Below, piece by piece: positions 54,475 through 58,751 of a stretch of DNA of 64,000 bases. A program made the translations under genes and the position numbers. This DNA comes from an uncultured Pelagibacteraceae bacterium (GTDB lineage: Bacteria > Pseudomonadota > Alphaproteobacteria > Pelagibacterales > Pelagibacteraceae). Where the stretch lies: contig CACMZL010000002.1 in NCBI GenBank assembly GCA_902618205.1, positions 124,001 to 188,000 on the forward strand. The letters run 5' to 3'. The first letter of the stretch is position 1, and each line of letters starts with the position of its first letter. The notes below the pieces were generated by a model that was given only the letters and a program-made list of their open reading frames with translations, did not search any database and was not told the DNA's origin.

Positions 54475-55038
54475 ATGTTTAAACTTCTTTTATTACTTTT
54501 TTTATTAATATTGCCGACAAAACTTAGTTCAGAAATAAATAATGAGTACTATGATAACAATTATTTCCATATTGGAAAAATGAATTCTTACAATAGTGAG
54601 TTCACTCTATATTTTAAAACACGGAAGAAAGCTATTTTAGCAAAGGGAGAATTTTCTAATTATATCAATGATTTTCCACAGGACTTATACTTATATGATA
54701 AAAATTTAAATAAAGATTACCCTCTGATTTCATATGACTGGTTTCCAAAAAAAGTTAAAAAAATATCAAAAAAATATAATTACCCACTTTTCCCAGAGGA
54801 TTTTGCTTACTATTTATTAAATGACAACAACACTTTAATTTTGATAAGTGCAAAAAAAAATTTTTATGAAAATTTAAAATATGACATAAAAAATAATAAG
54901 CTAGAAATTGCTAATACCTCTGGCAAATTAAATTTTATAATCTCTTCTTATGCTGAAAACTGTGGTTATAAATCTCTAAAAAATAATTTTGAGTGCAACA
55001 TTTATAAACCTTTAATTTCTAAAAATTTGCTTAATTAA
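54475..55038 (+). CDS. exported hypothetical protein
   Basis: Signal peptide MFKLLLLLFLLILPTKLSS; 187-aa ORF convergent with ftsY; no family recognised. Confidence 0.65.
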   Translation: MFKLLLLLFLLILPTKLSSEINNEYYDNNYFHIGKMNSYNSEFTLYFKTRKKAILAKGEFSNYINDFPQDLYLYDKNLNKDYPLISYDWFPKKVKKISKKYNYPLFPEDFAYYLLNDNNTLILISAKKNFYENLKYDIKNNKLEIANTSGKLNFIISSYAENCGYKSLKNNFECNIYKPLISKNLLN

Positions 55039-55948
55039 CTTGGGTAAATGCACTTGCAAACTTCTCAGCTTCAAATATTTGTAAGTCATCCTCTTTTTCT
55101 CCAAGCCCGAGACCAACAATAGGTACTTTATATTTCTTTGAAATCGCAATTAATATTCCACCTTTTGCAGTTCCGTCAAGTTTTGTCATTATGATGCCTG
55201 TGATTGGAAGTAATTTATTAAATTCTTCGAGTTGATTAATTATATTTTGTCCCGATGTTGCATCTAAAACTAAGATAACCTCGTGAGGTGCTGTTTCATC
55301 ACTTTTTTTAATTACATTCCCTATTTTTTTTAATTCATCCATTAAATTCTTTTTATTTTGTAATCTTCCTGCCGTGTCTACTATTACTTGATTTATGTTT
55401 TGACTTTGAGCTATTTCCATTGCTTTAAAAGCAACTGAAGCTGGATCTGAACCAGGATCTGATTTTACAATTTTAGCATCAACCCTGTTAGCCCATTCTT
55501 CTAATTGATCAATAGCAGCTGCTCTAAATGTATCGCATGCTGAAAATAGAACTTTATTATTATTTTGTATAAATATTTTTCCTAATTTTCCAATAGTAGT
55601 TGTCTTACCAACTCCATTAACACCTGAAACTAATATTATATTTGTCTTTTCTTTTTTTAAGAAAAAATCTTTCTTTTCTAGGGGTTTCATTAGTTCTAAA
55701 ATATAATTATTAAGTATTTCAAAAACTTCCTTTACTGGATCATTTTTTGGATCAATCTTTTTTTGAGCAATTATAGATTTTATCTCTGATGCTGCATCTA
55801 TGCCCACGTCTGAGCCGATCAAGAATTCTTCTATTTTATCAAGAGTTGTATCGTCAATTTCTTTCTTAACTATTATTTCTTTAAGACCTGATGCTATATT
55901 ACTTGCACTTCTTTTAAATCCGATTTTAAATTTTTCAAAAATACCCAT
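55031..55948 (-). CDS. ftsY: signal recognition particle receptor FtsY
   Basis: VSGVNGVGKTTTIGKLGK, ACDTFRAAAIDQLEEWA, VDTAGRLQNKKNLMDEL and TKLDGTAKGG. Confidence 0.96.
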   Translation of the reverse strand: MGIFEKFKIGFKRSASNIASGLKEIIVKKEIDDTTLDKIEEFLIGSDVGIDAASEIKSIIAQKKIDPKNDPVKEVFEILNNYILELMKPLEKKDFFLKKEKTNIILVSGVNGVGKTTTIGKLGKIFIQNNNKVLFSACDTFRAAAIDQLEEWANRVDAKIVKSDPGSDPASVAFKAMEIAQSQNINQVIVDTAGRLQNKKNLMDELKKIGNVIKKSDETAPHEVILVLDATSGQNIINQLEEFNKLLPITGIIMTKLDGTAKGGILIAISKKYKVPIVGLGLGEKEDDLQIFEAEKFASAFTQVN

Positions 55949-56772
55949 TATATTTTGATATTAATTTTTTCAATTTCAGATACAGGACCTCTCATTTTTA
56001 TATTTAATTCATTATCAATTTGAATATTTAAAATTCCTGTTGAAAATTCTATTTTTGAATTACTATTTTGTAGTTGATTTAAATTAGCTGCGACTGCTGT
56101 TGCACATGCTGCAGTCCCGCAAGCTTTTGTTAAACCAGCGCCCCTCTCCCAAACTTTAATTTTGTAATGTTGTTCACTAATTTTTTGAGCTATTGTGACA
56201 TTACATTTTTCAGGGAAAACTTCATGATTTTCTATTAATGGTCCATACTTTTTTAAATTTATTTTTTCTATATCCTCGCAAAAATATATGACATGAGGGT
56301 TTCCAACATTCACTGCAATACCACCATTCATTTTATTTCCGTCAATATCAATCATACCAAGTGATAGATTTTTAGTATCAAGATCTTTACTTAAAGGAAT
56401 TTTGTTCCACTCTAAATTTGGAGTTCCAATTATTGTTTCAACATCTTTATTATTAAGGACCTTAGATTTTAATATTTTTGAGGATACCAAAATTTCAATT
56501 TCTTTTTTATTTTTTTCAATACTTAGTAAATAAGCAACGCATCTAGTTCCATTTCCACATGCATCTGAGCGGCTTCCATCCGAGTTAAAAAAAGCAACAT
56601 CAGCATCAGCTTTTTGACTTTTTTTTATGTAGATCAACTGATCGCACCCTATGAAATCTCTGTCACAAATTTTTAAGATTTGGTCATTTGATAAGTTTAA
56701 ATTATTTATTCTCTGATCAATAATAACAAAGTCGTTACCTAATCCATCCATTTTAAATGCTTCAAATTCCAT
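55948..56772 (-). CDS. dapF: diaminopimelate epimerase
   Basis: KMDGLGNDFVIID, NSDGSRSDACGNGTRCVA and ERGAGLTKACGTAACA. Confidence 0.96.
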   Translation of the reverse strand: MEFEAFKMDGLGNDFVIIDQRINNLNLSNDQILKICDRDFIGCDQLIYIKKSQKADADVAFFNSDGSRSDACGNGTRCVAYLLSIEKNKKEIEILVSSKILKSKVLNNKDVETIIGTPNLEWNKIPLSKDLDTKNLSLGMIDIDGNKMNGGIAVNVGNPHVIYFCEDIEKINLKKYGPLIENHEVFPEKCNVTIAQKISEQHYKIKVWERGAGLTKACGTAACATAVAANLNQLQNSNSKIEFSTGILNIQIDNELNIKMRGPVSEIEKINIKI

Positions 56773-56795: not shown

Positions 56796-56821
56796 TTGAC
56801 TTTTTGAACCTCTAATATAGT
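56796..56821 (+). promoter_or_regulatory. possible promoter for ffh leader RNA
   Basis: TTGACT (56796-56801) and TATAGT (56816-56821) with a short 14-nt spacer; would start an RNA near 56828. Confidence 0.35.
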
Positions 56822-56824
56822 TTA

Positions 56825-56931
56825 CGCGAACTTCCGCAAAATACAGCAATTTGCGGTGTCTTTGGAAACAAAGAGATCGACACCAGTCAGCGAGGGTTCG
56901 CCCACTGGTGCGATACTTGCTGTGCGAAATT
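56825..56931 (+). ncRNA. candidate structured RNA/5' leader upstream of ffh
   Basis: ~49% G+C by hand count in an AT-rich genome. Hairpins CCGCAAA/TTTGCGG, CTTTG(GAAA)CAAAG and ATCG-a-CACCAGT/ACTGGTG-CGAT; loop ACAGCAA complementary to TTGCTGT. Confidence 0.65.
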
Positions 56932-58290
56932 ATGTTTGAAAATTTAACTAATAAATTTGAAGAAATTTTTTCTTCATTAAAAAAAGCTCCTTCTCTTGAT
57001 GAAAAGCAAGTTGATGAGGGTTTAAAAGGTATAAGGTTGGCCTTATTAGAAGCCGATGTTTCTTTAGACGTAGTTAAGGAGTTTATTAGTAGAGTTAAGC
57101 CTAAAGCGCTAGGTCAAGAAATTATACGATCAACTTCTCCCGGGGATATGGTTGTAAAAATCGTTTATGACGAAATAGTATCTTTTTTAGGTGATAAGAA
57201 TTCTGAAATCTCCCTTAATGCTGTCCCTCCAGTTCCAATCATGTTAGTTGGGTTGCAAGGTTCAGGAAAAACTACAACAACCTCAAAATTAGCGAAATTT
57301 TTAGAGAAAAATAATAAGAAAAAAGTTATGATGGCTAGTTTGGATGTTTACAGACCTGCCGCGCAAGAGCAATTGAGACTTTTGGGTGAACAAAATAATA
57401 TTGAAACTTTGCCAATTATAGAAGGCCAGCTTCCTGCTGATATTTGTAGAAGAGCTTTAAGTGCTGCAAATTTAAATGGTTGTGAAGTAGTTTTATTTGA
57501 TACCGCTGGAAGAACACAAATAGATTTTCAAATGATGAATGAAATCAAACAAATTGAAACTATTATTAATCCTGCAGAAACTATACTAGTAGCAGATTCT
57601 CTAACAGGTCAAGTTGCTGCTAATGTAGCAAAGGAATTTAAAAATACAGTAAATTTGAGCGGCATTATACTTACAAGAGCAGATGGAGATGGAAGAGGTG
57701 GAGCTGCATTGAGTATGAAATATGTTGCTGAGGTCCCTATAAAGTTTCTTGGTGTTGGAGAAAAAATTGAGAATTTTGAAGTTTTCCATCCTGATCGAAT
57801 TGCAAATAGAATTTTGGGAATGGGAGATATCGTTTCCTTAGTTGAAAAAGCTTCAGAAGATTTAGATCAAGAAAATTTAAAGAAAACAGAAGAGAAACTT
57901 AAAAAAGGTCAATTCTCGATGGAAGATTATCTTTCTCAATTACGTCAAATGAAAAAGATGGGTGGAATAGAAGGCATAATGTCATTTCTCCCTGGAGTTT
58001 CAAAAATTAAATCACAAATGGACCAATCAGGAATAGATGAAAAAATTATAACTCAAAATGAAGCTGTTATTTTATCAATGACAAAGCAAGAAAGAGAAAA
58101 TCCTAAAATTATAAATGGATCAAGAAAAAAAAGAATTGCTAATGGCTCAGGTACAGACATTGCCACTATCAATAAGTTGTTAAAACAATTTAAGATGATG
58201 TCAGAAATGATGAAAAAAATGTCTAAAGGAAACATGAAAGGAATGGCGGATAAAGGGATCCCGCCTGAACTATTTAATCAATTAAAATAA
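56932..58290 (+). CDS. ffh: signal recognition particle protein Ffh
   Basis: MFENLTNKFEEIFSSLKK, GLQGSGKTTTTSKLAKFL, DVYRPAAQEQLRLLG, DTAGRTQID, TRADGDGRGGAAL and a Met-rich M domain. ATG 56932 preferred; the listed TTG start at 56851 runs through the structured RNA. Confidence 0.96.
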   Translation: MFENLTNKFEEIFSSLKKAPSLDEKQVDEGLKGIRLALLEADVSLDVVKEFISRVKPKALGQEIIRSTSPGDMVVKIVYDEIVSFLGDKNSEISLNAVPPVPIMLVGLQGSGKTTTTSKLAKFLEKNNKKKVMMASLDVYRPAAQEQLRLLGEQNNIETLPIIEGQLPADICRRALSAANLNGCEVVLFDTAGRTQIDFQMMNEIKQIETIINPAETILVADSLTGQVAANVAKEFKNTVNLSGIILTRADGDGRGGAALSMKYVAEVPIKFLGVGEKIENFEVFHPDRIANRILGMGDIVSLVEKASEDLDQENLKKTEEKLKKGQFSMEDYLSQLRQMKKMGGIEGIMSFLPGVSKIKSQMDQSGIDEKIITQNEAVILSMTKQERENPKIINGSRKKRIANGSGTDIATINKLLKQFKMMSEMMKKMSKGNMKGMADKGIPPELFNQLK

Positions 58291-58304: not shown

Positions 58305-58751
58305 ATGTTAAAAATGAGACTATCAATGGGAGGTACTAAAAAAAGGCCAGTATATAAAATTGTTGTGGCTGATAGTAGGTTTCCAAGAGACGGAAGGTTT
58401 ATAGAAAAATTAGGTTTTTATAATCCGTTATTACCGAAGGATAAAAAGGAAAGAATTGGCTTAGATTCTGAGCGAATTAAATATTGGTTAGGTCAAGGAG
58501 CTCAGCCAACAACAAGAGTTGCAAGGTTATTGGGAGAAAACGATATAATGCCAATGCCTGAAAAAGGAAACAATCCTCAAAAAGCAATTCCTAAAAAAGA
58601 TAGAAAAAAAGCTGACGAAGGTGGAGAAGCGAAACCAGAAGGGGATGCATCTAAACCAGCAGAAGCACCTAAGGAAGAAGCTAAGCCAGCAGAAGCACCT
58701 AAGGAAGAAGCTAAGCCAGCAGAAGCACCTAAGGAAGAAGAAAAAAAATAA
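58305..58751 (+). CDS. rpsP: 30S ribosomal protein S16 with repetitive C-terminal tail
   Basis: [42 protein letters not shown]; strong AAGGAG SD upstream; tail ([10 protein letters not shown])n. Confidence 0.96.
58656..58745 (+). repeat. in-frame 30-bp tandem repeat, three units, in rpsP 3' end
   Basis: CCAGCAGAAGCACCTAAGGAAGAAGCTAAG at 58656 and 58686, with a third copy from 58716 identical over its first 25 nt. Confidence 0.95.

Follow-up and report, generated by a model that had tools for sequence, protein, structure and literature searches.

Evidence for a three-hairpin structure in the ffh leader RNA of Pelagibacterales

The ffh locus and its leader

The leader region lies at positions 56825-56931 of the window (the whole 64,000-nt stretch of DNA that was analysed), directly before ffh, the first gene of ffh-rpsP-trmD-rplS. 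ftsY and dapF are located just upstream in divergent orientation (55031-56772), so that the two SRP GTPase genes, ftsY and ffh, flank the leader in opposite directions. As the initial annotation had estimated by hand (about 49%), the region is rich in G+C, with 50.5% compared with 30.6% in the whole window, and merely 0.05% of 107-nt windows are as G+C-rich. The segment 56815-56935 also folds better than its dinucleotide shuffles (z -3.9; 1 of 200 shuffles equally good). No coding role has been proposed, and the TTG-initiated reading frame running across the leader is just an upstream extension of the ffh frame. The features referred to below are as follows.

56796..56821, + strand: predicted sigma-70-type promoter, -35 TTGACT (56796-56801) and -10-like TATAGT (56816-56821)
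56834..56856, + strand: hairpin P1, CCGCAAA (56834-56840) with TTTGCGG (56850-56856), outside the Rfam model
56854..56879, + strand: possible P2 extension, CGGU (56854-56857) with AUCG (56876-56879), from pairing in relatives
56859..56874, + strand: hairpin P2, TCTTTG(GAAA)CAAAGA, outside the Rfam base-paired model
56866..56918, + strand: RF01793 'ffh' match, 58.2 bits (gathering cut-off 35), E 1.7e-08
56881..56910, + strand: hairpin P3, CACCAGT-CA-GCGA...TCGC-CC-ACTGGTG, with the strongest covariation of the element
56917..56923, + strand: conserved tail TTGCTGT (consensus TTGYTGG in the order), from position frequencies downstream of P3
56932..58290, + strand: ffh (Pfam SRP54, SRP54_N, SRP_SPB)

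RF01793 was the sole Rfam match above cut-off in a scan of the whole window, a weak match to rli49 (19 bits, cut-off 40) being dismissed as chance. By this match, the core of the leader is a member of an already catalogued family found across the alphaproteobacteria. The novelty that the initial annotation had entertained, and against which it had itself set a match to a known family, is not borne out, and the element is ordinary as a discovery because the family is already known. Its reading as a structured RNA leading ffh is upheld by the RF01793 match, by the covarying hairpins described below and by the position of ffh directly downstream. Meyer et al. 2009 (PMC2704228) described the ffh motif, from the dapF/ffh intergenic region of 'Cand. 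Pelagibacter ubique', as one bulged hairpin in which two cytosines are conserved, and proposed for it a role in ffh regulation. The leader shares with the motif, as described there, the P3 hairpin, the conserved cytosines of the internal loop, the dapF/ffh intergenic region and the lineage. Whereas the 52 positions of the published and Rfam model form one bulged hairpin, the model presented here adds P1 and P2 with covariation support and ties the leader to a promoter and to the whole 5' UTR. Both features that characterize RF01793 are present, namely the bulged hairpin with conserved internal-loop cytosines (the C.C mismatch is kept in all 60 aligned sequences) and the position directly upstream of ffh, the ATG of which is at 56932.

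The leader is not SRP RNA, as the initial annotation had likewise concluded. In a search with Rfam models, RF00169 did not match the leader at E<=1. Small SRP RNA (RF00169) belongs to the same targeting system as the gene that the leader precedes, but is encoded as a separate gene on another contig (L001:1501-1595), where the leader model finds no match. We note that this SRP RNA is barely above the Rfam cut-off (42 bits, cut-off 40).

Of 398 genomes of the order, 351 contain RF01793. Twenty of the no-match genomes were checked, and all 20 assemblies lack the 5' end of ffh; the ffh matches in them are contig-edge fragments or stretches of about 30% identity, which most likely represent the paralogue FtsY. 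Thus, the leader is seemingly present wherever the locus has been assembled. A sample of the class contained RF01793 in 106 of 387 genomes, and all 80 matches in a sample of the phylum (399 genomes) fell within this same class, with one leader copy per genome in the searches. When the exact apex pattern was scanned over named genomes, at least 80 loci were readable; among the pattern matches listed, 79 of 80 share the strand of ffh and immediately precede it. The listed loci include Pelagibacteraceae, HIMB114, Rhodobacteraceae, Sphingomonadaceae, Kordiimonas, Rhodothalassium and Caedimonas, and Rfam confirms four of them. The last three are genera not named in the available part of Meyer et al. 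(PMC2704228). The remaining pattern match, in Frankia, has neither flanking helix nor ffh and was rejected as chance.

Three hairpins in the predicted 5' UTR

The hairpins drawn in the initial annotation have all of their arms where it had placed them, and P1, P2 and P3 each covary beyond a tree-aware null in the class-wide set. P3 consists of an outer helix, CACCAGT/ACTGGTG (56881-56887/56904-56910), and an inner helix, GCGA/TCGC (56890-56901). Among 40 dereplicated leaders of the order, about 95% of cells are paired in each of the three hairpins, and two-sided changes are seen at three pairs of P1, all six pairs of P2 and two pairs of P3. Covariation was scored by a G-test with average-product correction (own implementation) against a null in which substitutions were re-placed on the Ffh tree (30-40 replicates, E floor ~0.03). 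Within the order, one P3 pair and two P2 pairs (46-61 and 48-59) reach E <=0.05 under this null. Class-wide (55 sequences), E <=0.033 is reached by six pairs in P3 and by three each in P2 and P1. The 14 best-scoring of 4560 column pairs are without exception in P1, P2 or P3; this class-wide alignment was fitted to the three-hairpin model and so favours it.

An alignment-free comparison of matched with mismatched strands supports P1 and P3 both in the order and in the class-wide group; P2 is supported class-wide, its value in the order being compromised by pairs that gave no duplex. In addition, a covariance model built from Pelagibacterales only recovers full-length matches in distant G+C-rich alphaproteobacteria (best E 8.5e-15). 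Because they covary across relatives, the three hairpins go beyond chance, and the comparative data provide good evidence that the ffh leader comprises three conserved hairpins rather than the single published one. What is new here is an improved structural model of a conserved leader, the family itself being known; with it, the 52 positions of RF01793 could grow to about 100.

Within P3, the C.C mismatch formed by C56888 and C56903 is invariant in 60 of 60 sequences. The adjacent A.C position (A56889 and C56902) has G.U, G-C or C-G instead in 6 of 60, as would be expected if A.C forms a wobble pair. In other leaders, the 5' base of this position is C, G or U. With its fixed start and invariant C.C mismatch, the three-hairpin model offers a concrete construct for binding and reporter tests.

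The predicted promoter places the start of this RNA. The 130 nt before the core contain TTGAC in every leader compared, both from Pelagibacterales (40 of 40) and from other alphaproteobacteria (92 of 92), against a background of 0.11 per 130 nt, and its distance to the core is about equal in most of these 132 leaders. The spacing to TATAGT is 14, the alternative TAGTTT (56818-56823) giving 16, and this short spacing is the reason why a simple consensus scan missed the promoter. From TTGAC at 56796-56800, transcription is predicted to start near 56827-56831, just before P1, such that P1, P2 and P3 fill the whole predicted 5' UTR of ffh. The core is separated from the ffh ATG by 17-30 nt in most Pelagibacterales. 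No Shine-Dalgarno-like sequence precedes ffh in the window (56917-56931), and 16 of 40 leaders of the order have no Shine-Dalgarno of at least three bases.

Alternative pairings and the conserved tail

The competing fold suggested in the initial annotation, in which GGTGTC pairs with GACACC, found no support: none of its pairs has a two-sided change in 40 relatives, pairs are broken in up to 18 of 40 (46-67 being broken in 18), and matched strands perform no better than mismatched ones. Nor could the proposed pseudoknot between a hairpin loop and the tail be sustained as a conserved feature, with 51.3% paired compared with 50.8% in shuffles; a test for a loop-tail duplex in 40 sequences gave a weak positive (p 0.014). 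A pairing of the tail with a wider 5' region gave p 0.0004 (n=40), which rose to ~0.05 after thinning and disappeared in a narrower test. These tests demonstrated no pairing partner for the tail TTGCTGT.

A basal extension of P3, AUCG/CGAU, is poorly kept in relatives and was rejected. The minimum-energy structure contains an outer stem in which AUAUAGUUU pairs with the ATG region, and this stem requires bases in and next to the -10 box. Given the predicted start near 56827-56831, such a stem over the ATG would draw on promoter DNA, and with its bases upstream of the transcript start it is probably absent from the RNA.

The pairing CGGU/AUCG, by which P2 may be extended, cannot form together with the last three pairs of P1, nor with AUCG/CGAU. 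It is paired in 160 of 160 cells (40 relatives), and among other alphaproteobacteria in 81% of cells compared with 59% for AUCG/CGAU. Outside the order, its outermost pair is often mismatched, with C-A mismatches in many other alphaproteobacteria. Columns 20, 41 and 66 change jointly from G-C-G to A-U-A, which amounts to one co-change event on the tree, and the covariation of the extension is not significant under the tree-aware null, either within the order (E ~0.7) or class-wide. The idea of mutually exclusive folds survives only in altered form, with the P2 extension that overlaps P1 in place of the unsupported fold, and even this altered form rests on that one tree event. The sequence comparison makes the overlap suggestive only, a lead rather than a result. 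The P1 and extended-P2 folds lie within 3 kcal/mol of each other in 20 of 40 relatives, and pairing around the start codon is alike in the two candidate folds (0.42 and 0.45), for which reason a translational switch acting through start-codon pairing was rejected.

Possible functions of the leader

A U-rich tract follows P3 in 67% of other alphaproteobacteria, compared with 2% at control sites, and in 33% of Pelagibacterales leaders, compared with 12% at control sites; no terminator-like site was found in the window itself. RNAs from this intergenic region have been reported in relatives. In S. meliloti, sm5, between dapF and ffh, has a sigma-70 promoter and a predicted terminator and is enriched in the <200-nt fraction (PMC2573895), and the same RNA, as SmelC778, was observed as a discrete 115-nt species by deep sequencing (PMC2873474). 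This RNA is presumably the RF01793 counterpart, matched by position and size rather than by sequence alignment; it resembles the leader in its dapF/ffh location, sigma-70 promoter, length of ~110-115 nt and predicted terminator, and differs in being treated as an sRNA gene (PMC2573895, PMC2873474). Similarly, an 'ffH leader RNA' is listed among the expressed sRNAs of Bartonella bacilliformis (PMC7717549), and an RF01793 match with mapped ends among the predicted sRNAs of Mesorhizobium huakuii (PMC5596092).

We favour, at a probability of roughly one half, a cis-acting feedback leader of ffh-rpsP-trmD-rplS with an attenuator-like P3 that also yields a short leader RNA; its regulation, attenuation and ligand are what we infer from the comparisons above. 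The leader would constitute the ~100-nt 5' UTR of the operon, with P1, P2 and P3 following one another from the predicted transcription start. Ffh, S16, L19 or another RNA-binding factor would recognize P3 with its invariant C.C mismatch, and the bound factor would set the level of operon expression. In most alphaproteobacteria, P3 with its U-rich tract resembles a leaky intrinsic terminator, where premature termination, or processing, may release the ~100-115-nt leader RNA. In Pelagibacterales, which have a weak U tract and an ATG 17 nt past the core, control may instead be exerted at the translation start.

Among the factors that could bind, S16 or L19, whose genes lie further down the operon, may recognize the leader in place of Ffh, a possibility that we hold tentatively. 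In each of 20 diverse alphaproteobacteria, ffh is followed by rpsP, with rplS close by in 18. The operon ffh-rpsP-trmD-rplS encodes the candidate ligands, as is typical of ribosomal-protein leaders. S16 leader motifs are known elsewhere, and that of Flavobacteria (PMC7247131) is likewise a structured 5' UTR before an operon with ribosomal protein genes. The ffh leader differs in sitting before ffh. Ribosomal-protein leaders often bind their protein through resemblance to its rRNA site, but no mimicry was found in 16S, the leader model having no match in the genome's own 16S locus, a point against S16 or L19 as ligand. It appears rather unlikely that the element is instead an independent trans-acting sRNA that has a promoter and terminator of its own and happens to neighbour ffh on the upstream side. 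Such a reading would accord with the Rfam type 'Gene; sRNA', the discrete 115-nt RNA of S. meliloti (PMC2873474) and the terminator-like end in many alphaproteobacteria, but less readily with the same-strand position directly upstream of ffh in 79 of the 80 matches listed, with the single copy per genome in the searches, or with the 17-30 nt between leader and ATG in most Pelagibacterales, which leave no evident room for a separate ffh promoter.

A translational switch in which P1 and the extended P2 (CGGU/AUCG) alternate to control access to the ffh start seems quite improbable: the fully paired extension, the joint change of columns 20-41-66 and the similar energies of the two folds in half of the relatives are offset by the single tree event (E ~0.7 under the tree null), the C-A mismatches in many other alphaproteobacteria, the same start-codon pairing in both folds and the failed tests for a tail partner. 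A broader version, a three-hairpin RNA switch with P1 and extended P2 mutually exclusive and both conserved, which would tune synthesis of Ffh, S16, TrmD and L19 to the supply of SRP or ribosomes, we regard as doubtful; no description of switch-type control of ffh was found in the literature consulted. That the leader is a relic of, or stand-in for, domain IV of SRP RNA, binding Ffh by mimicry, is hardly credible. Its position upstream of ffh would fit, and UCAG together with the A.C pair of the leader superficially recalls the symmetric loop of domain IV. However, a full SRP RNA exists in the genome, the leader has no GNRA-capped domain IV, and G.U, G-C and C-G freely take the place of the A.C pair; Meyer et al. 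(PMC2704228) saw no resemblance either.

The cis-acting feedback leader that we favour would bear on how the amount of Ffh is set against SRP RNA, which a 2009 paper describes as not fully understood (PMC2704228). A large part of the alphaproteobacteria has kept the leader, which heads an operon that joins protein targeting to parts of the ribosome. Within this operon, rpsP and trmD abut or overlap in the window (58748-58751), compared with a gap of 0.65-0.9 kb in other alphaproteobacteria that is probably occupied by rimM, a gene that appears to be absent from the operon here. The low-complexity C-terminal tail of S16, the rpsP product, is encoded by three 30-bp tandem repeats (58651-58740, 98% matches). 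Contigs of many relatives, among them G295:C3, G233:C3 and G088:C1, break off ~1.65-1.85 kb downstream of the leader, in or near rpsP, and repeats of the rpsP type may therefore break assemblies.
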